The notes under the pieces are model-generated. The model was not told the DNA's origin. It saw only the letters and a program-made list of their open reading frames with translations, and did no database searches. From a virus, in IMG/VR virus record IMGVR_UViG_3300031772_000324, positions 1-21,951 of that record: a stretch of 21,951 nt of DNA. One strand, 5' to 3'. Both the position numbers and the translations under genes were made by a program. The first letter of the stretch is position 1; every line of letters starts with the position of its first letter. This document shows, in pieces, positions 1-18,184 of this stretch.

Positions 1-3000
1 TGCATTTCTTATACCAACAGTTTGAGCTACAATGAGTGGGCCTGTTAGAGCATTGACTATTGCATAGTTAAAGTTTGGAAGTCCTAATCCACCAAGCAAA
101 CCATTCTTTGCTATGTTGGCAGTTCCGTCATAGAGAGTTCCAATCGTATCCATAATAACTCTTCTGCCTAATACATCACCAGATTGTTTCCCTAAATCAT
201 TTAGCACAGCTTCTTTTCTTTGTGCAAGAGCAATAGCTTCTGGACTTAACTCTTTGTCAATAATCCTTCTTAAAGCATCTTCTGCTTCTGTTATTTCATC
301 TGCAATCTTTGTTCCATCCTTCGCAACATATTGGTCAAGTTTGGAAGCAGCAGAAGAAAGTTGAAGTGCTTGTATAGTTTCTGTTGTTCTCTTGATGTTA
401 GTAGCATTAAAGAGCGGACGTTTCAATCCAGCTTGTGCTTGTTGAAGTAATGGAATAGTTCCTACTTTTTCTGCAACACCTTGAACGGAAGCAGAGAAAG
501 GTGACTTCAACTGATTCTTAACATTAGTCAAACTTGTTTGATAAAATAGCGTAGTAGCATCTGCTCTTGCTTGACTATCAAAAATAGATTTGTAAACAGA
601 TGCTGGGGGAGAATCAAGTTCGTCAAGACCCGCTGTTAATATTCTACTAATGGCTGATTTTTCTGTGGCAGGTAAAAAAGATAGTGCAGTTTCAGTTGTA
701 AAATATTCAGCAAGTGTTTGTTTATATTTTACTGATTTACCTACGCCACCAGAAATAGATGCAACATTATCTGTAATACCAGCAATCAATAAATCTTGTG
801 ATAAACGTGCAGTTCTTACGTCTGATAATACATTTACCTGTTGCGGAAGTTTAATAATACCAGTTTGTCCTACAAGTTCTGGTCTTAACTTTTGATAGGT
901 TGCTATTTCTAATGCAGTTAATCCACCAGATGCTGCCTGTTCATCTAATGTTTTTATTAAACCATTACGAATAACTGACCAATCATCTTCTGCTATTTGT
1001 TGAAGAGTATTATATGATGGGAATAGTTCTGGATAATCTGTTTGTGCTTTATATAAAACATCATCAACAACATTTGCTTGACCTCTTAAATAATAGTTTC
1101 CAAGTAGAAGTTCTTTAAAGTTGTCTGGTTTAAATAATGGGCCTTGTTGTGATGCTGCTTTATATGTTTCATCAATACCTCTACTTCCTCCTCTTGGACT
1201 ATAAAAGTTAATATCTGTATTGCCAGCATAGTTAAAGTTTAAATATTCTTTGCCTGCTGGAAGTGGTCTGGTATTAACAAACATACCATTTCTTGCATAA
1301 GCATACCCATTTTCTAATAGTTGTGGTATTTGATTTTCTTGAATACCAGACAATCTGGTAAGTGATTGCTGAATAGAATAACCAGAGAGTTCTATATGTA
1401 ATCTTTGTAATACGTTGAGTGCGCCAATGTTGTCACCGTTAGAAACTCTTAATGCAAACTCAATAAATCTTTCACCAAATATTGTTCCATCTGTATGCAT
1501 AAGAACTGTAATAAGGTCACGCATTTCTTTTGTTGCGACAGCCATCTTATCAAGTTCAAGTGTGCGACCAGTAGTTGCTACTGCGTCAATAGCTTGTTCG
1601 TAACCACCATACATAGAAGCTACATATGAACGATACATTTCATATGCTCCCATTTGTTGTTTAAATCTTACTTCTGCACCTAATAATGGAGCACCAGCAG
1701 GAGCAGCTTCAAATGGTTTCTGTGTTGCCTTACCTACGTTAAGTTTAAGTCCAACTGCTCTCTCTGCTATTATTGGTTTGTAAAGACCTTCTTTTGTAAA
1801 CTCCTCTACCATAGTATCGGCAAATGCTTGGGGTCTACTGACCTTATCAACATTCATCTTCCTACGCATCTTACCTTTAAATCTTTCTCCCAATGCGCCG
1901 AACCTTGCATTTACTTCACTAATAATATTATTTGCTATTGGGCTTTTAGTAGGTGGAGCATTAAGAAGTTTCTTGCTTTTATCAATAAGAATAGCAGCCA
2001 AACCAGATTCTTGTAAATCTTTTGGTGTCATTACATTACGAACAAAATAAGAAAGCTCTGATGCTTTATCTGGTTCTCCACCTAATCTACCAGCAATACC
2101 AGCAATATCAGTTGGAGATTTTGCTGTAATCTTTGGAGAGGCTTCTAATGCTACTGCTCCTTTAACTAACTCATTAAACTGTTCTGCTGATATTTCTTGT
2201 GTTTTTCCAACTCTTGTAATAGTAGGTGCAGTTTGGAATGGAGAATAAAGTTCTGTTGGCTTAATATAAAAAGCACCAGATGGAGGCTCTACTATTTGTG
2301 CTGTCTTTCCAAACTGTTTTTCTTTTGCAAATGGTTCAATAAAATATTGCTTTAACTTATTAAACTCTTTTTGTGTAACTGAAACTGGATTACCATTATT
2401 ATTAATCAAGCGTTCTCTAATATCTGCAAGTATTTTATTTTGTTTAACCTTTGCGATTACTTCTTTTGCTTCTGTTGGAGAAAGAATAACATTACCTACT
2501 TTTACAGTTTGACCTGTAATGCCAGTTCGTGCTGCAAAATCATTAATAGTTTTTCTTCCAAGTTCAATCTTGTAAGATTTGTTTAATGATTGTTCTATTT
2601 TTGGTGTAAGAACTAAACCTGTTTCTAATGCTGCACCTTTTACTGCACCAGTTATTCTACCAGCAGGTATTTTTATTCCTCTTCTTAACAAATCTTGTTC
2701 AAGAGCAAATAATACTCCTGCTATTTGTTGAGGCGATGTACCCGCTGCAATCGCCTCACGACGAATAGCATTTACATATTCATCCAATGCTGGTAAAAAC
2801 TCATCTCCCTTTACTGACCCACCAGCAAGCAATCTGCCTTTTGTTGTAGGAGAGAGATTATCAATAAAAGCGTTAAAGTATAAACTCTGACGATTACCAG
2901 TAGCAACATCATCAAAGTAATCAACAGAGCTTTTACCTTCTCTTGTCTTTTTAATAGAATCTTCTACTTCTTGTAATCTAACGTTTGGTGGAGGGTCACC

Positions 3001-4689
3001 TAATACTTTGGTTCTTTTACCAGCAGAGTTGTAAACATCAATACCGTGTCTCTCTGCATTAGCAGCCCATTCATCAAAGTCAGCATATTTGGTAATAGGA
3101 TGGTTAGTTCCTGCTGCTACTTCTGCTGCCTTAATATCATCAAACCTTTGACGTAGAGCATCAAGGTAAGGCTGTTGGTCATAAGCACCTTTTGTTTCTG
3201 CTGCAACTTTACCAGCTTCTTTGTCTGCTCTAACTGCTGCTTGAACACCATCGTCCCCTGCAAGTTTAATAGTAGTAGCAGAAGCATTAGATACTGATGG
3301 ACTGTTCAACCAGTTTCTTGTAGCAGTTTCCATTTCTTTGGTTACTGTTTTTAATCCACCAGTTCTTTGACCTGTTATTCTCCACGCATCTACAACACCT
3401 TCTGTAAGCCCACCAATGGCACCTCTGCCTGCTGCTCTCGCTGCGCTTGTGCCAAACTCCCCTGCAATATCTACGGCTGTTGCAGCGGTTCTGGTGGCGG
3501 TTGCTGCGCCTTGAATAACACCAAGGTCAAGAGGAATACCAATACCACCAATAAATCCTAATGTTCCACCAGCATAACTTAATAGGTCTTGTGTTTCTTT
3601 ATCTGCTCCGAACAACTCACCAGCTTTGGAAAATGATTCAGCACCAGCACCCATTAGACCTGTGCCTTTGGATACTTGTTTTTTAAACTCTTTTCTTAAT
3701 GAGATAGGTTTATCAACCGCTGCTTCATACTCTGCTTTCATTTCGGGAGTAAAGTTTGCTGGTGGTTTTCCTGTGGCTTGTAAATATTCTTTACCAATCT
3801 TTTGACCAATGCCAGCAGCAAGAGTAACCGCACCAGCTTCTGATGCAGACAACACTTTACCAGCAGTAGTTAATGGAGATTCAATAACTTGACCTGTTGG
3901 ACTTACAGATGTAAATGCTGCTCTTGCTGCTTTGTCTGCTCCACTTCTTTTCATTATAGAAGCCATAAACCCATCTGGGTCTTTACCTCCATAGAAACGA
4001 TAAGAGTCATAAACCTTTTTAAACTCTTCCCCTGTTGGTGTTTTACCAGCATTGAATGATTTAAAGAAAGTTTGTGTGGCTCCATAAGCCTCTGTATCTC
4101 TTGCTTTCTTTTGCTCTGCTGTTTCGATTACCTTTGGTGCTACGGCTTCAAAGAAGTCAGCAACAACATTATCTCCTAATACCTGTCTGTATGTAAAAGG
4201 TGTTGGAGATAGTGGGCGTGTTTCACCAGATGGAGTTCTTGGAGTAGTAGCAATCTGTTGTCCTCTTTCTATTAATCTTGCACCTTGTTCTGGTGACAAT
4301 CTTGTTTCTGCTGGACCTGTAAAAGAACGTGCAGCAATATCTCTTCTTCTTTGCTCTAATGCTTTATCAAGTTGTTCTTGACCAGACGTAGCAGCAGTAG
4401 GGGGAAAGCGAGGAAGCATACCAGATTCGGGTTGAATACCACTTCTAAAAGTAGATGCTCTTCTTGCATCTGTCTCTGTTACTTTTGGAGTAGGAGCAGG
4501 AGTTGGTCTTGGAATAGCAGTAGGAATAATAGCAGTTGGAATAGTAGAAACAGGTGCTCCTACTAATCTCATAACTCCATCTTCCGACATACTATTATAG
4601 ACCCAAGATATATCTGCATCTGGGTTTAGTTTAAGCTTTTCTCTGATTGCTGTTTCTTGTGCTGGGGTAATGTCCGCTGGTTTAGCCAT
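1..4689 (-). CDS. Giant putative internal virion / DNA-ejection protein (partial, C-terminus beyond the left edge)
   Basis: I read every codon of this frame from the ATG at 4689 to base 1. There is no stop, so at least 1563 residues are present and the end lies outside the window. AAGGA sits 8 bases before the ATG, just after the previous gene's stop. The N-terminus (MAKPADITPAQETAIREKLK) is followed by a Pro/Thr-rich linker at about residues 44-70 and an Arg/Gln/Ala-rich region. A Gly/Ala-rich hydrophobic stretch lies at about 374-403, and another (GLLGGLGLPNFNYAIVNALT) at about 1530-1549. The rest looks mainly helical. In podoviruses the largest ejection protein (T7 gp16, about 1300 residues) spans the cell envelope during DNA delivery, and that role is inferred from size, position and hydrophobic patches. 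I found no lytic transglycosylase motif. A giant polyvalent-type protein with unseen C-terminal domains is an alternative. Confidence 0.85.
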   Translation of the reverse strand, partial: MAKPADITPAQETAIREKLKLNPDADISWVYNSMSEDGVMRLVGAPVSTIPTAIIPTAIPRPTPAPTPKVTETDARRASTFRSGIQPESGMLPRFPPTAATSGQEQLDKALEQRRRDIAARSFTGPAETRLSPEQGARLIERGQQIATTPRTPSGETRPLSPTPFTYRQVLGDNVVADFFEAVAPKVIETAEQKKARDTEAYGATQTFFKSFNAGKTPTGEEFKKVYDSYRFYGGKDPDGFMASIMKRSGADKAARAAFTSVSPTGQVIESPLTTAGKVLSASEAGAVTLAAGIGQKIGKEYLQATGKPPANFTPEMKAEYEAAVDKPISLRKEFKKQVSKGTGLMGAGAESFSKAGELFGADKETQDLLSYAGGTLGFIGGIGIPLDLGVIQGAATATRTAATAVDIAGEFGTSAARAAGRGAIGGLTEGVVDAWRITGQRTGGLKTVTKEMETATRNWLNSPSVSNASATTIKLAGDDGVQAAVRADKEAGKVAAETKGAYDQQPYLDALRQRFDDIKAAEVAAGTNHPITKYADFDEWAANAERHGIDVYNSAGKRTKVLGDPPPNVRLQEVEDSIKKTREGKSSVDYFDDVATGNRQSLYFNAFIDNLSPTTKGRLLAGGSVKGDEFLPALDEYVNAIRREAIAAGTSPQQIAGVLFALEQDLLRRGIKIPAGRITGAVKGAALETGLVLTPKIEQSLNKSYKIELGRKTINDFAARTGITGQTVKVGNVILSPTEAKEVIAKVKQNKILADIRERLINNNGNPVSVTQKEFNKLKQYFIEPFAKEKQFGKTAQIVEPPSGAFYIKPTELYSPFQTAPTITRVGKTQEISAEQFNELVKGAVALEASPKITAKSPTDIAGIAGRLGGEPDKASELSYFVRNVMTPKDLQESGLAAILIDKSKKLLNAPPTKSPIANNIISEVNARFGALGERFKGKMRRKMNVDKVSRPQAFADTMVEEFTKEGLYKPIIAERAVGLKLNVGKATQKPFEAAPAGAPLLGAEVRFKQQMGAYEMYRSYVASMYGGYEQAIDAVATTGRTLELDKMAVATKEMRDLITVLMHTDGTIFGERFIEFALRVSNGDNIGALNVLQRLHIELSGYSIQQSLTRLSGIQENQIPQLLENGYAYARNGMFVNTRPLPAGKEYLNFNYAGNTDINFYSPRGGSRGIDETYKAASQQGPLFKPDNFKELLLGNYYLRGQANVVDDVLYKAQTDYPELFPSYNTLQQIAEDDWSVIRNGLIKTLDEQAASGGLTALEIATYQKLRPELVGQTGIIKLPQQVNVLSDVRTARLSQDLLIAGITDNVASISGGVGKSVKYKQTLAEYFTTETALSFLPATEKSAISRILTAGLDELDSPPASVYKSIFDSQARADATTLFYQTSLTNVKNQLKSPFSASVQGVAEKVGTIPLLQQAQAGLKRPLFNATNIKRTTETIQALQLSSAASKLDQYVAKDGTKIADEITEAEDALRRIIDKELSPEAIALAQRKEAVLNDLGKQSGDVLGRRVIMDTIGTLYDGTANIAKNGLLGGLGLPNFNYAIVNALTGPLIVAQTVGIRNA

Positions 4690-4699
4690 TCTTTATTCC

Positions 4700-7384
4700 T
4701 TATGCGTTTATCTTACCGCTGGTCGAATCTAATGCTGCCAATGAAGAAAGTATTTCAACTGCTTTCTTTTGTTTCTCTGGGGTTCCAGCATACTCTCTTA
4801 TTATAGTTTGTGTCAACTCACCAAGAGGTTTTGCCTTTTGTCCCTTGATTTTATTCTCATCATAGAGAGCGGCAATATATTTACCCATCGCATCTTTGTT
4901 TACAAGTTTACCAGCAGCAGCGGGATTCTCTGTGGCAAGTTTAGTTCCCGAAAGAATAGCTAATGTCTTTGCTGTTACGTCTTTCTTTTCTAATGAAGCA
5001 CCTTCTTCTGGCTTTCCTATCTCACCAGCTTTCTTCATAAACTCTCTACGAGATTTAAATGAATCAAGTTGGTCTTGAAGTTCTTGCTTCTTTCTTAAAC
5101 TTTCTTGTCTTGCTCTATCACCAGCACCCATATCTCCACCAAGAACTTCACTACCCATAATGTCTCCAACAGGAGTTTCTGGTATACCAAGTGCTGCTCT
5201 ATCTAACTTATTAAGTTTAGGTGGAAGCTTATCTTTATAGCCGGGAAACTCTGATGCTGACATAGGACGGAATACTTCGCCACCAACTTCTCTTGGATAA
5301 GGTGGACGCATACTCTCTGGGAAGTTCTCGTATTGATTTAATCCACCTCTGGTAATACCAGCAATAGCTTCTGCCCTATCTGGACCAGACATTTGTGGAG
5401 TGATTAGTTCACCTGTTCTTCTATCTAACTCTGGTCTAAATCCACGAAGAAGAACATCACCTATTGAACGACGAGCTTCTGGTGTAGGAGTTGGGCCTAT
5501 TACACCTTCTGGTTTAACTTCTATTGCTGGTGCTCTACGCTCACCTTGCATAGAACGTTTACGCAAATCATCGCTTTCAATACGCTGGCGTTGTGCATCA
5601 AGCATACCACGAATATCTACATTAGGAGATTCAGCAGTAGGAGCGGGAGGCATTACTCTATCTCTGAATAGTTTTGCATATTCAGATTCAGCAACAATCG
5701 GTGCTCTTAATCCAGATGTATCTGGTAGTGGTGCTCCTTCGGGAATATCATCCAGATAAGGAAGAATACCAGAATCTCTTGCAATACGATAATCTGATAT
5801 TAGCTTTGCTACTTCTTCATTTGGGACAGCTTCTTTATTATATGTAGCTATTCTATCTTTAACTACTTGAAGGTCTTGTGGTTTAATACCTTGTGTAGCA
5901 GCCCAAGCTTCTTTGGAAACTTGATAAGCGGCAGCATCGGCAGCAGCATTACCCGTGTTAGGTTTTACAACACCAACAGAATCCCATCCTCTTTCATCGG
6001 AAGGAGCAACTACATTTGCAGCAGCAGAAGTAGCACCAGCAACGGCTGTCTTGGTTGAAGTAGCAGCAGCATACTGTGGGTCACGGGCAGCTAATCCAGA
6101 GAATAGAACAGTCCTTGCTCTTTTCTTTCCTTCTTCAACAGCAGCATTAAAAATGTCCGTAGTAAATGCTTGTCCAGCATCGAAGGCCGCTTTCTTTGCT
6201 AATCTTACTTCTTCTTCAATATAGTTTCCAAAGAAAGTTTTAACCTTACCTAATGCATTTGTAAGTTCATAAGGCATAAGGTTTTTATATTTACCAATAG
6301 TTTCTCCACCCATTCGTAGAGTAGTTCCTGTTGGTGCCTCACCAAACTTCTGCATATATTCATCGCGTGTAGCTGTGATTATATCAATAGGTTCAAGAAC
6401 TGGCTTTGGTATTACTTTATCTTCTACTGCTTTTATTTGTTCTCTAACTGCTGCTTCGGCATCATCTAATGGTTTAAGGTCAGTATCTTGTGCAGTAAGT
6501 GCTCCCATCGCAGGAAGTTCATAATCTTTGTAATAACTTCCTCTTGAAGCACTATTAGAAGATGACATAGATTCTTTATCAGCAGCACCAGAACCTTTCT
6601 CTGCTCTATCTTTTACTTTCTGTGCGCCTCTAACAACATCACCTTGAATCTGTCCGTCAGAAAGTTGTGCATCTAATAGTGTTCTTGCCGCATCTTCTGA
6701 TATGCCTTGTTGCTGTGCAAGTTTAGAAACCATATAACGATGTGCTGCATATAAAGTAACTGCTGCGCCATATTCTGTATTATCTATCTGTCCAGAGTTT
6801 TGCCTTGCCTTTAAATCTTTAAGTTGAGCGGCAGCAGTTACATAGTCAGTAGCTCCCGCAGCAGCAGCACTAACGGCTTGTTTAGCGGTTAAACCTTGGT
6901 CAGCACCTACTTCATCCATCGCTTCATCTAATGCATCTCTACCACCAGCGGCTCTTACTTTCGCACCAGCTCCTGTTGCAAGTGTATTGGACCAACTATG
7001 AGAATAAGAAGAAGAAGCAACATAAGCATCATCACGAACTTGTTTGGATTTTGCTTTGTATTCTTCTCTTAATCTTGTGTTTTTTTCTTTCCACTCTGCA
7101 TCTTCTCTTTTGATTTTAGCAGAAGCTTTCTTTACATAAATATCTGATAAGCGTTTTTCTAAATCACCTCTACGTTTTTCAAGAGCAGCAAGTTCTTTCT
7201 GATACATATCTGATGCTTCTTGAAACTGTAACTTTTCTTCCGCTATTCTCTGTGCGACAACGGCAGCAGAAATATCCCATCTCTGCCAACCCATATCTGT
7301 ATAGTAAGAACTATATTGTGAAGCTCTTGTCTTACTATCTGCTTCTAACATTTTTTTAAGTTCTGCTTCTGCTGTTTTTGCCAT
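4700..7384 (-). CDS. Putative internal virion (ejection) protein, 894 aa, with N-terminal coiled coil
   Basis: I do not recognise a named family. The protein is hydrophilic, Ala/Lys/Glu-rich and has no signal peptide. Residues about 40-118 form a long charged heptad-like stretch (YQKELAALEKRRGDLEKRLS within it) that should be a coiled coil. Residues about 150-250 are Ala-rich and helical, and the C-terminal third is rich in Pro, Arg and Glu. AGGAG lies 9 bases before the ATG inside the end of the upstream gene, and only one base separates that gene's stop from this start, so translation is probably coupled. It is second in a series of three genes of increasing size (272, 894, at least 1563 residues), as with T7 gp14 (196), gp15 (747) and gp16. 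I infer an ejectosome or core-stack protein. A non-ejection structural role cannot be excluded. Confidence 0.85.
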   Translation of the reverse strand: MAKTAEAELKKMLEADSKTRASQYSSYYTDMGWQRWDISAAVVAQRIAEEKLQFQEASDMYQKELAALEKRRGDLEKRLSDIYVKKASAKIKREDAEWKEKNTRLREEYKAKSKQVRDDAYVASSSYSHSWSNTLATGAGAKVRAAGGRDALDEAMDEVGADQGLTAKQAVSAAAAGATDYVTAAAQLKDLKARQNSGQIDNTEYGAAVTLYAAHRYMVSKLAQQQGISEDAARTLLDAQLSDGQIQGDVVRGAQKVKDRAEKGSGAADKESMSSSNSASRGSYYKDYELPAMGALTAQDTDLKPLDDAEAAVREQIKAVEDKVIPKPVLEPIDIITATRDEYMQKFGEAPTGTTLRMGGETIGKYKNLMPYELTNALGKVKTFFGNYIEEEVRLAKKAAFDAGQAFTTDIFNAAVEEGKKRARTVLFSGLAARDPQYAAATSTKTAVAGATSAAANVVAPSDERGWDSVGVVKPNTGNAAADAAAYQVSKEAWAATQGIKPQDLQVVKDRIATYNKEAVPNEEVAKLISDYRIARDSGILPYLDDIPEGAPLPDTSGLRAPIVAESEYAKLFRDRVMPPAPTAESPNVDIRGMLDAQRQRIESDDLRKRSMQGERRAPAIEVKPEGVIGPTPTPEARRSIGDVLLRGFRPELDRRTGELITPQMSGPDRAEAIAGITRGGLNQYENFPESMRPPYPREVGGEVFRPMSASEFPGYKDKLPPKLNKLDRAALGIPETPVGDIMGSEVLGGDMGAGDRARQESLRKKQELQDQLDSFKSRREFMKKAGEIGKPEEGASLEKKDVTAKTLAILSGTKLATENPAAAGKLVNKDAMGKYIAALYDENKIKGQKAKPLGELTQTIIREYAGTPEKQKKAVEILSSLAALDSTSGKINA

Positions 7385-12982: not shown

Positions 12983-14551
12983 TTATGGTGCCAACTTCAA
13001 ACTTGCTGGGTCATAGAATGGAAAACCATCTGTGCCAATAGTGAAGCTTCCTCTAACAAAGGTTGTGTCTACTGAATCTACATAACGCTTTTCAAGACCA
13101 AGAATAGCTTTCTCAATCTTCTTTCTATAAGTAGCTCCAAGTTCAAGATTTCCAGATTTATTATATATATCTTCCAACACACCATAGACAACAAGTTGAT
13201 GAAACTCGTAAGGCATTTGTGGAGTATCAGTTGCTAAACCCATACGAAGTGGTTTCTTCATATAACGAACTTCTAATCTACGGAAATATTCTTCATCTGC
13301 TTTGGGTAATATCTCTCCACCAGCTTGTGCTGGGTTATAGAAGTCAAAAGCATTGATACGAGGATAAGGTCTAATGCGTGGAATACTTCCATCCCATTCA
13401 ACATAACGAGGATTACCACCATTAAAACTATTAATAAACTGTAAAACAACTTGTGAGTTTTCATCACTAACTATTATTGGTTTATGAGAATCAACGGTAG
13501 AACCTTCACTACTTGCAATAGAACCAAATGTAATAGCTCTCCATACAGGAAGTCCTAATCTTTTTCCTGTTGCTGGATTAAAGTTAGAGTTGTAAAAAAG
13601 AACTTTACGAAGTCCTTCAAACTTATTTGGTGCTATATCTACGATGTTATTAAATGCCTGTGCTGCGATTGGCTTATCATCAAAAGTAGAAAACTGTAAA
13701 GTAATAATAGAAGTTGATGGTCCTCCTTGATTTGTCCCTTGTGATTTAAAAAGTAAAGGTTCAGAGAGTGGACCTATCTTTGCTCCAAGATAATAGAAAG
13801 CCCAGCAGATTTCAAAGTATGTATTAGGTGGTATAGTTGCCCCTGCATCATAAACCTGTGATAGTTCTTTTAGTTTCTCTGCTGGTGGAACATTGATTGG
13901 AGGAGTGTCAACATAGCACTCTGCATAGTTGGCAGTATAATCTTCACGAAGGTTTATATCTTCTTCTCTTCGTTTAGCCAATCCATTTACTTTTCCAAAG
14001 GGAGGACGCTGACCACTTACAGCAGGAACATCACGATGAGATAGATTAAGAAGTTCAAGACAATCTTCTGGTAAGTCATAAAAGCGTTTCTTAACTACCC
14101 AAGATGTATTGTCTACAACATTTCCACCACGATAAGGTTCTGCCAATCTTATTTCAGTATCTGAAACTATTTTAAGGATTGTGTATTCTCTACCATTTAT
14201 CTGGATAAGTTCTCCTTCATAAGCAGAACCAGTAGAGCCATATGATTTAGAAGTGTCGTGAGAGGAGAATGGCCCAAGTGATACTTCGGCAAGAAGCGAA
14301 GGAACAGAACCAGAGAAGGTTACTCTGCGTGAACCATTTAAAACGTTAATGTTTTTGCCTGTCCGACCAAAGTTTAGGTCTGGATATATTTTAATAAAAT
14401 CTTGGACTTGTGAGAACTTCCAGCGTTTTGCTGTCCATATAGAATAGAAAGCATCATTAACCAAATCATCAACTTGGTCTTGATAAGTTTGTAACTCTGG
14501 TGTGTAGTCCGTTATGTTTTTAACTTTACTTCGTAGGTCTTGTAGATTCAT
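12983..14551 (-). CDS. Putative head-to-tail adaptor (tail tubular A-like) with inserted beta domain, 522 aa
   Basis: The N-terminal helix-rich segment (MNLQDLRSKVKNITDYTPEL, then VDDLVNDAFYSIWTAKRWKF) and the C-terminal part (YMKKPLRMGLATDTPQMPYE at about 430-449, HQLVVYGVLEDIYNKSGN, then a Lys/Glu helix) are the two halves usual in podoviral adaptor or tail-tube A proteins that bind the portal. T7 gp11 is about 196 residues and P22 gp4 about 166, so this protein is far longer. The extra material, about residues 215-360, reads as an FN3-like domain (YFEICWAFYYLGAKIGPLSE; FEGLRKVLFYNSNF). AGGAG lies 11 bases before the ATG. It is the first gene after the terminator at 14575-14610, so its expression probably depends on read-through. 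Position directly before the nozzle-like gene supports the call. Confidence 0.75.
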   Translation of the reverse strand: MNLQDLRSKVKNITDYTPELQTYQDQVDDLVNDAFYSIWTAKRWKFSQVQDFIKIYPDLNFGRTGKNINVLNGSRRVTFSGSVPSLLAEVSLGPFSSHDTSKSYGSTGSAYEGELIQINGREYTILKIVSDTEIRLAEPYRGGNVVDNTSWVVKKRFYDLPEDCLELLNLSHRDVPAVSGQRPPFGKVNGLAKRREEDINLREDYTANYAECYVDTPPINVPPAEKLKELSQVYDAGATIPPNTYFEICWAFYYLGAKIGPLSEPLLFKSQGTNQGGPSTSIITLQFSTFDDKPIAAQAFNNIVDIAPNKFEGLRKVLFYNSNFNPATGKRLGLPVWRAITFGSIASSEGSTVDSHKPIIVSDENSQVVLQFINSFNGGNPRYVEWDGSIPRIRPYPRINAFDFYNPAQAGGEILPKADEEYFRRLEVRYMKKPLRMGLATDTPQMPYEFHQLVVYGVLEDIYNKSGNLELGATYRKKIEKAILGLEKRYVDSVDTTFVRGSFTIGTDGFPFYDPASLKLAP

Positions 14552-14574
14552 AGTAGATGATGCTCCTGTTTATT

Positions 14575-14610
14575 AAAAAACCCTCCCTCCCGTTTATTTG
14601 AGAGAGAGGG
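14575..14610 (-). terminator. Intrinsic terminator after the capsid/decoration genes
   Basis: Read on the minus strand: CCCTCTCTCTC (14610-14600), loop AAATAAAC, GGGAGGGAGGG (14591-14581), then TTTTTT (14580-14575). All 11 stem positions pair, nine Watson-Crick and two G-U. The stem begins 23 bases after the decoration gene's stop codon (14633-14635). It separates the head genes from the tail genes, much as T7's late terminator follows gene 10. The complementary strand shows an A-run before the stem and a weak CTTCTTTT after it, so orientation favours the minus strand. Confidence 0.9.
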
Positions 14611-14632
14611 CTTCTTTTACCTTACAGTTATA

Positions 14633-15106
14633 TTAGAAGGATTTAAGTACCCAAACTGGTGCAAAACCAGCAACCGAAGCTGCAAGTGAAACACCACAGG
14701 GCTGTGCTATATTAGCAGCAACATTCGCAGCAGCTTCGCCAGTAACTGCGACAACTGCGAGTGGAACACCAGCAGCAGCAACACCAGCATTTACGGCTGC
14801 GACAGGTGCCAAACCCGAAATAACAACTTCGACTTTTCCGCCGACTGTTGCTTGTGCGGCTCTGGCAACACCAACGGTAAGAGCATTACCAAGGGCTGTT
14901 AGAGCAGCAGGAACAACGAAGAGAACTCTATCAGCACCAGTTTGAGTTACATCGAAAGCAACCCATTGACCAGCAGTAATAGCAGAACCAGCAAGAAAGA
15001 TTTCTGACTGTGAACGATTGAGTGTAGTAACAGTTGAACCAACAGTTCCAGAAACCAATGGGTCTGTAACTCGGTCTAACTTTTGTAGTATATTAGTAGT
15101 AGCCAT
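14633..15106 (-). CDS. Putative capsid decoration/stabilisation protein, 157 aa
   Basis: A small Ala/Val/Gly/Thr-rich protein right after the major capsid gene. From about residue 40 it shows short hydrophobic strands separated by Gly turns (SAITAGQWVAFDV, NALTVGVARAAQATVGGKVE, VEVVISGLAPVAAVNAGVAA, CGVSLAASVAGFAPVWVLKS). The G-x-A-x-x-V-G-V-A / G-x-V-x-V-x-I-x-G pattern is like small beta-barrel decoration proteins of the DUF2190 type. Residues about 98-136 are almost wholly small aliphatic. AAAGGAG stands 9 bases before the ATG in the 26-base gap after the capsid stop. The strong terminator downstream means it is made at capsid-like levels, which fits a protein needed in many copies. Family assignment is by resemblance only. 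Confidence 0.75.
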   Translation of the reverse strand: MATTNILQKLDRVTDPLVSGTVGSTVTTLNRSQSEIFLAGSAITAGQWVAFDVTQTGADRVLFVVPAALTALGNALTVGVARAAQATVGGKVEVVISGLAPVAAVNAGVAAAGVPLAVVAVTGEAAANVAANIAQPCGVSLAASVAGFAPVWVLKSF

Positions 15107-15132
15107 TTTATTTTAACTCCTTTTAAGTTAGA

Positions 15133-16146
15133 TTAGAATACATCGCCATTGATTAGAACGCCTTGGGAACCAAGATGGTCAGCGATAAGTTGTCCCTTGA
15201 AGTATACGGTGGCTGCGCGAGCAGTAGTACCAGAGATATATTCAAATGGTGAAACAGCGAAGTCACCATCTTTGTGGATTACCATTTTGACACCATCAAA
15301 GTTGAGGAAGTACATTGAGTAAACAGCAGCACCACCACCGTTAAGTGGCATATCACTATCTGCTGAAACCATAGCTCCTGCATAAGCAAGTGCCATACGT
15401 CCACCATCAAGAGTTTTTTCATCAATGTATCTTTCGTTTACGAAGAGGGTTCTCTTGTAGTTTGAGAAAGCTGCGGTTGATGCTATGACGGAGTTGATTT
15501 CGCCCATTGGGGTAATAACGTTTGAAGCAGTATAGATGTTATGCATCGCTCCAAGTCCACCAGTACCGAAGGCACCAGCAGCAGTTTGGAACTGATTGAA
15601 GAAACCGGGAACGTTAAGAGTTGCCTTGTTTAATCCACCAACAACAGAGGTCTGTGTAGCACCGGGAACACGGGGTTCAAGGAACTTGTTTGCACCAGCG
15701 GTTGAACCATTGAGAGTATTCATAGTAGTAAGAGAAGCAGAAGTTCCAGCAAGGATTTGCTTGTTAAGCTCTCTGCGAAGAAGAGACATAACGGAACGCA
15801 TACGAGCTTCGACAATCTTAACGATTGCTTTCTCACCAGAGTTTTCAAGCTCTTCTTTCTTGCTGATTACGATTGGAGCAGCAAAGTCACACCAGTCATA
15901 AATGGCTGGTTTAAGAACGTCAGCTACTGCAAGTGATACTGGCTCATAACCAGTTGTCATTAGAGAAATGCTGGAGTGTTCTGCTACGGATAGTGGGCGT
16001 TGAATCTTGATGCCACCATCTTCGTATTCAATACCACCGTGTTTTTTAGCGTCGTCAAGGAAGGGGACTTTCTTGAAGAGTTCATCTACTTCGCCATCTC
16101 TGATTGAGTATAGGGTAGATGATAAGAGGTCATTAGTTATTGCCAT
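15133..16146 (-). CDS. Major capsid protein (HK97-fold type), 337 aa
   Basis: The protein that builds the icosahedral shell. Length, location between scaffold and decoration genes, and composition agree. The N-terminal arm is charged and helical (LFKKVPFLDDAKKHGGIEYE). A beta-extended region has IQRPLSVAEHSSISLMTTGY. A long 'spine' type helix follows (KAIVKIVEARMRSVMSLLRR at about 106-125, then ELNKQILAG). A Gly-rich P-domain-like stretch and a final strand segment (AVSPFEYISGTTARAATVYF) close it. No separate protease gene is visible nearby and the protein shows no obvious delta domain, consistent with a scaffold encoded separately. AAGGAGA lies 7 bases before the ATG. It is preceded by a 166-base leader with unusual structure and followed by the decoration gene and a terminator, a layout suited to high, separately controlled expression. 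Confidence 0.9.
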   Translation of the reverse strand: MAITNDLLSSTLYSIRDGEVDELFKKVPFLDDAKKHGGIEYEDGGIKIQRPLSVAEHSSISLMTTGYEPVSLAVADVLKPAIYDWCDFAAPIVISKKEELENSGEKAIVKIVEARMRSVMSLLRRELNKQILAGTSASLTTMNTLNGSTAGANKFLEPRVPGATQTSVVGGLNKATLNVPGFFNQFQTAAGAFGTGGLGAMHNIYTASNVITPMGEINSVIASTAAFSNYKRTLFVNERYIDEKTLDGGRMALAYAGAMVSADSDMPLNGGGAAVYSMYFLNFDGVKMVIHKDGDFAVSPFEYISGTTARAATVYFKGQLIADHLGSQGVLINGDVF

Positions 16147-16153
16147 TTTCTTA

Positions 16154-16161
16154 TCTCCTTA
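16154..16161 (-). promoter_or_regulatory. Ribosome-binding site of the capsid gene
   Basis: Minus-strand TAAGGAGA, 7 bases before the capsid ATG at 16146. Its TAAGGAG is perfectly complementary over 7 bases to CTCCTTA at 16264-16258 in the same leader. Confidence 0.85.
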
Positions 16162-16180
16162 TGGATAGTTTAGTTAAATA

Positions 16181-16191
16181 CATTTAGTTGT
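16181..16191. repeat. 11-base direct repeat, copy nearest the capsid gene
   Basis: CATTTAGTTGT on the plus strand (ACAACTAAATG on the transcribed strand), identical to 16271-16281 with starts exactly 90 bases apart. This copy forms the 3' arm of the hairpin at 16185-16242. Confidence 0.7.
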
Positions 16192-16242
16192 TAATCTTAC
16201 TTGATAGTCCCGTAGGTTATTATCTGTAAGGGTCAACAACTA
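16185..16242 (-). other. Long imperfect RNA hairpin with C(UACG)G tetraloop
   Basis: On the minus strand TAGTTGTT (16242-16235) pairs with AACAACTA (16192-16185). After a small internal loop CTTAC (16230-16226) pairs with GTAAG (16200-16196). Then GATA pairs with TATC, and at the tip CC-TACG-GG. UNCG-class loops closed by C-G are unusually stable in RNA, and the tetraloop reads as such only on the transcribed strand. Its 3' base is 38 bases before the capsid ATG. Confidence 0.55.
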
Positions 16243-16270
16243 ATGTAAAGTATTCCGTAAGGAGGTTTAG

Positions 16271-16281
16271 CATTTAGTTGT
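16271..16281. repeat. 11-base direct repeat, copy nearest the scaffold gene
   Basis: CATTTAGTTGT on the plus strand, second copy of the repeat at 16181-16191. On the transcribed strand its ACAACTA can pair with TAGTTGT at 16242-16236, competing with the downstream copy for the same arm. Confidence 0.7.
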
Positions 16282-16312
16282 CTGTCCTATTAGATAAAGA
16301 GAACGTCAAGTA

Positions 16313-17122
16313 TTATCGTCTAATCTTATTGCTGTTCTTATTTACTGATGCTGATGCTTCTGGGTTATTCTTAAACCATTGGTAGGATTCCCAAGCATCC
16401 TTAAACTTTGGCACAGTAACACCATTTACATTTTGTCCTGTCGAGGTTTTGTTAGTAGCAGATACTCTTGCCTTGGCAGCTTCTTTTTCTTTACCAGAAT
16501 ATTCAGCAGCCTTCTGTCCCTTGACAATGTAGTAAGCATCTTCAAGTTTTAAATCTTCTCTTGAAATAAGAAGTTTAGCAATATCATCTTTGTAACTTAA
16601 TAGGTCTGGGTTTGCAGATTTAAATGCTTCTAACTGTGCTCCACGTTTAGCTTGCTCTAACTCCATCTGTAAAGGATTAAGCATTTGCTGAAACATCTTC
16701 GCAGCTTCTTGCTGGATACGTTGCTGCATACCTTCTTCTGACCAAGCATCGTGTTCTATTGGTTTAGAAGCCAACTCATTTATCTGTTTTTGAAATCCAC
16801 CACCAAGAAGAAGCTCACGTTCTTTTATTAGGTTTGCTCTTTCAGCATCTAATGCTCTTCGTTGGTCTGCTACTTCTTGTGTTTTCTGTGTGGACATAGC
16901 TCGTAAGTTAGAGACAAGCTTTCTTGCATCCTCTGGTAAGTGCTGTAAGATTTCGTTATATGGTTTTAAACCTTTGTGGGTTTGTCCCATGATAGGGTCG
17001 TCACCAAAATCTGCTGACATTAACTCTTCAAGAGTTATTTGATAATCTCCCTCAACTACAGGAGCAGCTTCTACTACTTCGGGAGTGGTGCCTACTTCGG
17101 CAGTTCCATTTACTTCTTCCAT
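16313..17122 (-). CDS. Capsid scaffolding protein, 269 aa
   Basis: Guides capsid assembly and is normally expelled or degraded before DNA packaging. It shows the usual plan: an acidic disordered N-terminus (EVNGTAEVGTTPEVVEAAPV), then long charged helices at about 75-108 (STQKTQEVADQRRALDAERA) and 128-168 (MQQRIQQEAAKMFQQMLNPL), both coiled-coil-like. A conserved-looking patch (PKFKDAWESYQWFKNNPEAS at 238-257) and a basic tail (KNSNKIRR) follow. In P22 the basic C-terminus binds the coat protein, and the same is inferred here. AAGGA is 8-9 bases before the ATG. It lies immediately upstream of the capsid leader. Confidence 0.85.
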   Translation of the reverse strand: MEEVNGTAEVGTTPEVVEAAPVVEGDYQITLEELMSADFGDDPIMGQTHKGLKPYNEILQHLPEDARKLVSNLRAMSTQKTQEVADQRRALDAERANLIKERELLLGGGFQKQINELASKPIEHDAWSEEGMQQRIQQEAAKMFQQMLNPLQMELEQAKRGAQLEAFKSANPDLLSYKDDIAKLLISREDLKLEDAYYIVKGQKAAEYSGKEKEAAKARVSATNKTSTGQNVNGVTVPKFKDAWESYQWFKNNPEASASVNKNSNKIRR

Positions 17123-17143
17123 TTTGTTTTTCCTTTTTTATTG

Positions 17144-17686
17144 TTACATACGAGAAGCAAAAAGTGCTTCTATATTTGGTGATTGCTCTTCTGTCTTTGC
17201 CATAGCCATAGGGTCACCCATTGGCTCTTGGTTAGATGGTGTTTCCATCTCTGTTGGTTTGCTCTTTAAGAACTTTTTAAATGCTGGAACTTTGGATAGA
17301 CGGTCAAGCTTTCCAGCAATAACTATGACAGAACCATCTCCACCTTTCATTTCTTCAAGAGAGTATTCAAGCTCTGCTGGAACTTCATCCATTCCAACAG
17401 CATCGGTTACTGCTTGTGCAATCATAGCAAGAGCACGAACTACTTCTGGTGTAAGTGCTTTTTCTTTTATTGGTGGTAATCCAAAGAGAGGAAGAACTTT
17501 ATTAAGAGCATTTGACAATCCTATCAAAGCTTTGGGTGATACATTGACACCTTCAAGAAGAGACATATATCCTGCGTCCTCTTCCTGTTTAGCCATATCA
17601 ATATCACCTTTTAGTTTCTCTCCCATACCCTTGATGGATTCTTCTTCTCCACCTTCAATCTCTATTTCTATCATTGGTTTTGCCAT
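17144..17686 (-). CDS. Acidic head-cassette protein of unknown function, 180 aa
   Basis: Not recognised. The N-terminal 45 residues are strongly acidic (MAKPMIEIEIEGGEEESIKG). Two moderately hydrophobic helices follow (KALIGLSNALNKVLPLFGLP at 52-71; EVVRALAMIAQAVTDAVGMD at 81-100), then a short basic patch (LDRLSKVPAFKKFLKSKP) and a Met/Pro/Glu-rich disordered tail. AGGAG stands 8 bases before the ATG, 3 bases after the zinc-ribbon gene's stop. Its place between portal/zinc-ribbon and scaffold suggests an assembly helper or minor head protein. A second scaffold-like factor is plausible given the charge pattern, but nothing visible proves it. Confidence 0.75.
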   Translation of the reverse strand: MAKPMIEIEIEGGEEESIKGMGEKLKGDIDMAKQEEDAGYMSLLEGVNVSPKALIGLSNALNKVLPLFGLPPIKEKALTPEVVRALAMIAQAVTDAVGMDEVPAELEYSLEEMKGGDGSVIVIAGKLDRLSKVPAFKKFLKSKPTEMETPSNQEPMGDPMAMAKTEEQSPNIEALFASRM

Positions 17687-17689
17687 AGT

Positions 17690-18184
17690 TTATTCTCCTG
17701 TGTTTATGTTTGCTGAAAGTGTTTTAACTGCACCTGTTTCGCCAATACAATCTTTGGCTGGCAGGACTTCTTCTATTGCTCTTACTTTTGCTTGAACCGA
17801 ACCACCATACTGTTCAACTTTATCTTTATATGATTGTAGGATTTTATCCTGTTCAGCTTTTATATTAAGTTCTGCTGACATTCTTTTCTCAACGAATGAA
17901 TCTCCACCAACATCTTCAAGAGGAATAAGACCTTTGCTTTTGGCAATCCTTTCTCTATCCATCGAGTTATAGTAAGTAGCTCCAAGTCCTCTATCAAAGC
18001 AACCATTAACTCCCCACTTACCAGTTTGGTCGCCCCACTTACCAGCAGTTTTAGCTGGTGCAGATACTAACGAATGAAGGGGAGAGTCACAATCTTTACA
18101 GGTCTGTGCATCTTTATTCTCAAACTTGCATAATCTGTCTGTTTGTTTTTTACAGGTGTAGCAAATGAAATCATACATAGGCAT
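17690..18184 (-). CDS. FmdB-type zinc-ribbon protein in the head cassette, 164 aa
   Basis: The start MPMYDFICYTCKKQTDRLCK, with C8-x2-C11 and C29-x2-C32, matches the FmdB-family zinc ribbon (consensus MPxYxYxCxxC...CxxC). A second segment at about 48-95 has a repeated GKWG, then RGLGATYYNSMDRERIAKSK and GLIPLEDVGG. That second block is the form seen in phage-encoded members. The rest is Lys/Glu/Ala-rich and probably helical. Four cysteines are placed to bind one zinc. The function of the phage family is not established. FmdB was named as a regulator, but its position between portal and scaffold argues for a role in head assembly or DNA packaging. GAGGG lies just before the ATG, 3 bases after the portal stop. 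A second ATG at codon 3 is possible. Confidence 0.85.
   Translation of the reverse strand: MPMYDFICYTCKKQTDRLCKFENKDAQTCKDCDSPLHSLVSAPAKTAGKWGDQTGKWGVNGCFDRGLGATYYNSMDRERIAKSKGLIPLEDVGGDSFVEKRMSAELNIKAEQDKILQSYKDKVEQYGGSVQAKVRAIEEVLPAKDCIGETGAVKTLSANINTGE

Follow-up and report, generated by a model that had tools for sequence, protein, structure and literature searches.

How much capsid protein a tailed phage makes is usually ascribed to promoters and gene order, and the locus analysed here raises the question of whether the RNA preceding a capsid gene may also take part. The window, that is the whole stretch of DNA analysed, corresponds to a virus record (G000), 21,951 bases long, in which terminase and portal-like genes lie upstream of the capsid gene. 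The capsid leader, at 166 nt, is the longest among 14 computed gaps (Table 1), and the open reading frame (ORF) which precedes it is without a Pfam or PHROG match. The DNA between 14000 and 18000 has no match among annotated phages. The capsid protein matches seven records of named phages with an identity of 22.9-26.3% and, in the five of these which were examined, the gap 5′ of the capsid gene measures 16, 29, 27, 141 and 163 nt.

Table 1. Features of the capsid leader and its surroundings (window coordinates)
Feature	Position	Strand	Remarks
Major capsid protein ORF, 337 aa	15133..16146	minus	phrog_9953 (major head protein), E 1.6e-25
Capsid leader, 166 nt	16147..16312	minus	between ORF 16313-17122 and the capsid ORF
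Capsid Shine-Dalgarno (SD), UAAGGAG	16155..16161	minus	
X'dn, downstream copy, AACAACUAAAUGU	16180..16192	minus	X:down duplex matched by 0/1000 shuffles in the window leader
Hairpin 2 core, CUUAC..GAUA..CC[UAC]GG..UAUC..GUAAG	16196..16230	minus	fold and RNAalifold
X, putative switch strand, CAUUAGUUGUU	16235..16245	minus	complementary to X'up and X'dn
Hairpin 1, UAAA-CC-UCC[UUAC]GGA-AUAC-UUUA	16246..16269	minus	contains part of the anti-SD
Anti-SD, CUCCUUA	16258..16264	minus	
X'up, upstream copy, ACAACUAAAUG	16271..16281	minus	up:X duplex matched by 3/1000 shuffles in the window leader
TTGACG-N11-TAATAG block	16287..16309	minus	promoter-like, short spacer
ORF	16313..17122		position of a scaffold gene; bounds the capsid leader upstream

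A preliminary description of this DNA had drawn attention to the complementarity between CUCCUUA in the leader and the capsid SD, with a hairpin between the two, and these coordinates were confirmed. Together with its flank the anti-SD reads ACCUCCUUA, which we take to be the 3′ tail of 16S rRNA and which occurs once on the minus strand. Also as described, the capsid gene is the only one of 16 minus-strand starts (126 nt upstream of each) to have a perfect 7-base complement to the SD stretch; the next-best perfect complement is 6, at three of the 16. Since 11.8% of 500 dinucleotide-shuffled window leaders contain seven or more bases perfectly complementary to the capsid SD stretch, the 7-mer match alone is not significant. 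The predicted fold of 16120-16312 (z -3.73, 0 of 200 shuffles as good) does bring the two ends together: its minimum free energy (MFE) structure pairs CUCCUUA.GGA with UCC.UAAGGAG around the long hairpin. In the window, this extended SD duplex is matched by 30 of 1000 shuffles in which the pre-SD bases were shuffled and the SD was kept.

Capsid searches of IMG/VR gave 68 loci and then the best 80 of 280 relatives. The resulting 104 leaders, with the window and duplicates counted, include 19 recognised by eye as class A, to which the window leader belongs; among the other 85, simple sequence patterns assign 43 to class B and 19 to class C, and 23 are left. Common to the family are one or two hairpins with an asymmetric internal loop, called here A/YAC, located 5′ of the capsid gene and found across classes A, B and C. 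Their form is stem, then A, AC or CC, 3-5 bp, a loop of 3-7, (N)(C/U)AC, and stem. A strict descriptor of this form finds at least one such hairpin in 28 of 51 non-redundant leaders (<85% similarity), five of which have two, against 0.55 of 51 in shuffles and 1.45 of 47.8 in random 200-nt segments of the same contigs; the descriptor was devised after inspecting these leaders and the figures therefore denote an enrichment and not an independent test. It misses 23 leaders, including four of the eight in class A (L007, L011, L014 and L015), matches five places in the whole window on both strands, among them hairpin 1, and matches nothing in the two long named-phage gaps, those of BUCT555 and Mx9. 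Judged from sequence comparison, a structured RNA occupies the stretch 5′ of the capsid gene. By eye, the 141-nt pre-capsid gap of BUCT555 (L220, 560-700) has a TTGACA-N17-TAGAAT sequence with an inverted repeat spanning the spacer. At the 5′ end of the L018 leader (192 nt before 6001), which has one A/YAC hairpin at -55, is a long hairpin, rich in GC and followed by a pyrimidine-rich tail, that resembles a terminator by eye.

Fold strength alone does not set these leaders apart, their ensemble-energy z (50 leaders, mean -1.15, 16 below -2) being only a little better than that of 50 control gene starts (mean -0.76, 12 below -2). SD accessibility in 50 leaders is not below that in shuffles (mean rank 0.54) and is similar to the 0.55 obtained for 50 of 128 control starts, which indicates that hiding of the SD is not family-wide. 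CUCCUUA was considered as the conserved core of the family and rejected on these grounds and because CCUCCUU is not kept in classes B and C; retention of this sequence among related phages, on which the preliminary description had made its proposal depend, does not extend to those two classes. Genome contigs scanned for prophages with a capsid pattern gave 213 matching stretches, none encoding a relative.

In class A, a strand called X sits between hairpins 1 and 2 and is complementary both to X'up, before hairpin 1, and to X'dn, after hairpin 2. RNAalifold recovers hairpins 1 and 2 in this class and, from a second alignment, hairpin 1 with just the tip of hairpin 2. Compared with shuffled partners, the up:X duplex is matched by 0-30 of 1000 in 11 of 13 class A leaders (the exceptions are L016 with 141 and L015 with 75) and the X:down duplex by 0-31 of 1000 in all 13, a set which includes near-duplicates. 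In a small set of eight related leaders, of which L014 and L016 are especially close, anchoring by eye gives 67 of 96 paired cells in up:X and 76 of 96 in X:down, compared with 24-48 and 19-46 when the strands are slid by 1-3. In these eight, both helices have A-U, C-G (L011) or U-A (L015) as the pair adjoining the fixed GUU/AAC. X:down has further matched changes at -2, +3 and +4 (7 or 8 of 8 leaders paired); up:X is weaker, with +3 and +4 paired in 4 of 8 leaders and -5 in one of 8. An unanchored two-partner scan places 11 of 51 leaders at a shuffle fraction of at most 0.05 and is weaker than the anchored comparison for the eight class A leaders (0.00, 0.05, 0.52, 0.05, 0.42, 0.13, 0.05 and 0.12). 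Complementarity and matched changes thus support the retention of both helices. These putative helices are mutually exclusive and, in class A only, both appear conserved, and the class A leader looks able to switch between two shapes.

The reading which we favour, with a probability of about 0.5, is that the leader is a cis-acting two-state RNA regulator of capsid expression. In one state (S1), X would pair with X'up, hairpin 1 would form and the anti-SD would be locked within it. In the other (S2), X would pair with X'dn, releasing hairpin 1 and freeing the anti-SD; pairing of CUCCUUA..GGA with UCC..UAAGGAG could then close the capsid start. The state adopted would set capsid translation, and the bias between the two might come from a factor bound to A/YAC (a virion protein or a host factor) or from the order of co-transcriptional folding. 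The SD:anti-SD pairing, with which the description of this locus began, would then be a possible output arm of the two-state leader; what is conserved is instead the A/YAC hairpins, joined in class A by the two-partner strand X.

How closely the two states are coupled to the SD differs among class A leaders. In computed folding ensembles of 12 of them (L015 was left out), the SD pairs predominantly with the anti-SD region in seven, with a mean pairing of 0.69 in the window, 0.67 in L064, 0.73 in L007, 0.70 in L013, 0.93 in L014, 0.92 in L016 and 0.57 in L058. It is lower in L009 (0.35) and L011 (0.29) and about nil in L003 (0.01), L004 (0.01) and L010 (0.00). The earlier suggestion that the hairpin would hide the capsid start is partly supported: such hiding is predicted for those seven, is predicted to be out of use in the last three and is not general in the family. 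Five of the 12 MFE structures are S1-like (L003, L004, L010, L011 and L058) and seven contain the anti-SD:SD duplex. At most 7.1% of pre-SD shuffles reach the extended duplex in 9 of 13 leaders; it is no better than the shuffles in L003, L010, L015 and L016 (528, 960, 735 and 115 of 1000, respectively). Swapping SD regions between phages makes the duplex only slightly weaker (11 leaders, own -12.1 against a mean of -11.5, p 0.095).

In class A the UCC of the anti-SD can alternatively pair with the GGA of hairpin 1. The C:G pairing of hairpin 1 is 0.07 in the window leader and 0.97-0.99 in L003, L004 and L010, and the SD is unpaired at 0.04 in the former, where 0.69 is pairing with the anti-SD, and at 0.24-0.35 in the latter three; in the folding model, the window SD may pair elsewhere in S1. 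With each state enforced on the full leader, the energy of the SD duplex minus that of hairpin 1 is -0.6 kcal/mol in the window, 1.4 in L064, 0.0 in L009, 3.8 in L004, 4.6 in L003, 11.3 in L010 and -1.0 to -8.0 in the other class A leaders. Removal of 25 nt of 5′ sequence leaves the SD duplex favoured in 12 of 13. When the hairpin-1 core is enforced on the shortened leader, X pairs with X'dn and not with X'up in four of the five structures printed (the window, L007, L013 and L014). For class A, taken separately for this purpose only after its structure had been seen, the eight non-redundant leaders have SD accessibility ranks of 0.12, 0.33, 0.50, 0.29, 0.08, 0.04, 0.00 and 0.04.

Scanned over viral contigs, the class patterns, which derive from capsid leaders and are hence blind to distant members elsewhere, are located ahead of capsid genes. 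All 34 class C stretches lie 36-42 nt 5′ of a capsid relative, 23 of 28 class B stretches lie 77-95 nt 5′ of one (the remainder being one at a contig end and four without a capsid, judged by eye to be chance), and all 10 class A matches fall on contigs which the capsid searches had already supplied. Class B includes a covarying pseudoknot formed between the loop GCAA-N7-C and a GG(N)G stretch downstream of it. Among 27 leaders with the 5′ anchor, six are without the 3′ anchor and 21 were tested: all seven pairs form in 18 of these (better of two registers), the exceptions being L100 (5) and, probably through mis-anchoring, L045 (4) and L028 (2). The leaders' own mean is 6.5 pairs, against 6.0 when swapped, and the U-G present at pair 5 in 19 of 21 favours RNA over DNA. 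Class B may be two-state as well. The unanchored two-partner scan marks a GGNGAAGG strand in the class B leaders L019, L021, L034 and L042 (shuffle fractions 0.02, 0.00, 0.03 and 0.05).

The alignment of 20 distinct class C leaders gives a three-way junction in which 5 of 22 pairs are changed on both sides and kept; the constancy of its second hairpin is by construction, the search pattern having fixed much of this sequence. The closing stem GCCUA/UAGGC is changed on both sides in 3 of the 20. A putative promoter of canonical form, TTGACA-N17-TAMAMT, lies directly upstream of the hairpins, and the 5′ strand of the closing stem, which directly follows its -10, should be absent from the transcript of that promoter. 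By eye, the promoter is flanked by an inverted repeat, CATAGG ahead of the -35 and CCTATG following the -10, in many of the 20 leaders (for example L174:386-463), though not in every one. Run over 55 sources, the class C model R1 returned the four class C sources and, beyond these, only capsid-leader matches in L131 (E 0.05) and L140 (E 0.61) together with a match outside the leader in L015 (E 2.9); it reached no class A or B leaders. Class C leader searches of phage DNA gave chance-like matches only.

One of two promoter patterns picked after inspection, TTGACR-N9-11-TANTRR or TTGACA-N16-18-TANNNT (the second being the canonical sigma70 type), occurs in 20 of 50 leaders against 16 of 2000 random segments. 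The TTGAC-block pattern is in mild excess over 593 kb of loci (27 matches, 14.3 in block shuffles). The short-spaced block of class A is not a canonical promoter and, since the homologous block in L004 pairs in the predicted extended fold (MFE), the promoter and RNA readings are not separated in this class. In L048, L051 and L068, a TTGAC-N11-TATTAG block with a GGGAGG hairpin was seen by eye 5′ of a short Lys/Arg-rich frame which separates the upstream gene from the capsid leader.

The same observations can be read in other ways. It is possible, though unlikely, that the leader has no switch and is a structure serving to bind a protein or to stabilise the mRNA, the SD match and the repeats being by-products of AU-rich helices. 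This would suit a family in which the A/YAC hairpins occur in all three classes but SD hiding is not general, and the class C promoter would put the hairpins near the 5′ end; it sits less well with two alternative class A helices which both beat shuffles and change together. If SD:anti-SD pairing alone mattered and the intervening hairpin were inert, there would be no explanation for hairpin 1, the upstream copy or classes B and C. The window MFE and the nine leaders whose extended pairing beats pre-SD shuffles argue for this simple form, but with the near-zero pairing in three leaders and the swap result we hold it to be improbable.

Modification of RNA polymerase for late-gene read-through by a put-like RNA seems more improbable still. 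HK022 putL is described as about 70 nt long with two stem-loops just downstream of PL (PMC9378689), and the likeness would be to class C, with its two bulged stem-loops adjoining a putative promoter; unlike putL as described there, the present leaders are capsid-linked and the branch to which the window belongs adds an anti-SD. The location of the scanned patterns ahead of capsid genes argues against such a role, as do the four minus-strand terminator-like matches downstream (14000-18000), all inside ORFs, and the A/YAC descriptor has one match on both strands of a 13.8-kb HK022 stretch in which put is unannotated and its site was not located. The two-state regulator also admits a more specific version, in which the A/YAC hairpins would sense capsid or scaffold protein, and so the assembly state, and class A would flip X to open or close the capsid start, making these leaders an undescribed RNA family in uncultivated podovirus-like phages. 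We consider this version distinctly unlikely; if true, it would give tailed phages a counterpart to the coat-protein operators known from RNA phages.

Rfam 15 at its gathering cut-off has no match in the window or in 16 related loci, a permissive scan of 16100-16400 gives two matches far below the cut-off (E 2.6 and 5.5), and no such capsid-leader element was found in the open-licence literature among the matches listed. The proposed two-state leader resembles riboswitch-type translational SD/anti-SD switches, in which a strand has two alternative partners and one of the two pairings can hide the SD; it differs in lying 5′ of a phage capsid gene, in hairpins which share the A/YAC loop and in having no recognised ligand site. 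The A/YAC loop itself may be similar to the C-loop of the thrS operator, an asymmetric internal loop whose longer strand contains C and A. The T7 gene 10 leader is also structured and immediately 5′ of a capsid gene; it is of the protein-binding or mRNA-stabilising type and is not known to have a two-state design. Given a conserved structured RNA which is tied to the capsid gene and has an apparently two-state branch, post-transcriptional control of the amount of capsid would become open to testing; such a leader would also be a compact natural RNA switch.

Elsewhere, PF00940 (single-subunit RNA polymerase) was matched in 0 of 10 records but also in 0 of 14 controls. On the minus strand of the window, an ORF of at least 1563 aa (1-4689) continues past the left end and adjoins an 894-aa ORF (4700-7384) without a Pfam or PHROG match at E 0.001. 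A 164-aa protein encoded between the portal-like gene and the pre-capsid genes (17690-18184, minus strand) has an N-terminal zinc-ribbon match (PF09723, E 1.1e-6) at 28.9 bits, below the curated 34.4.
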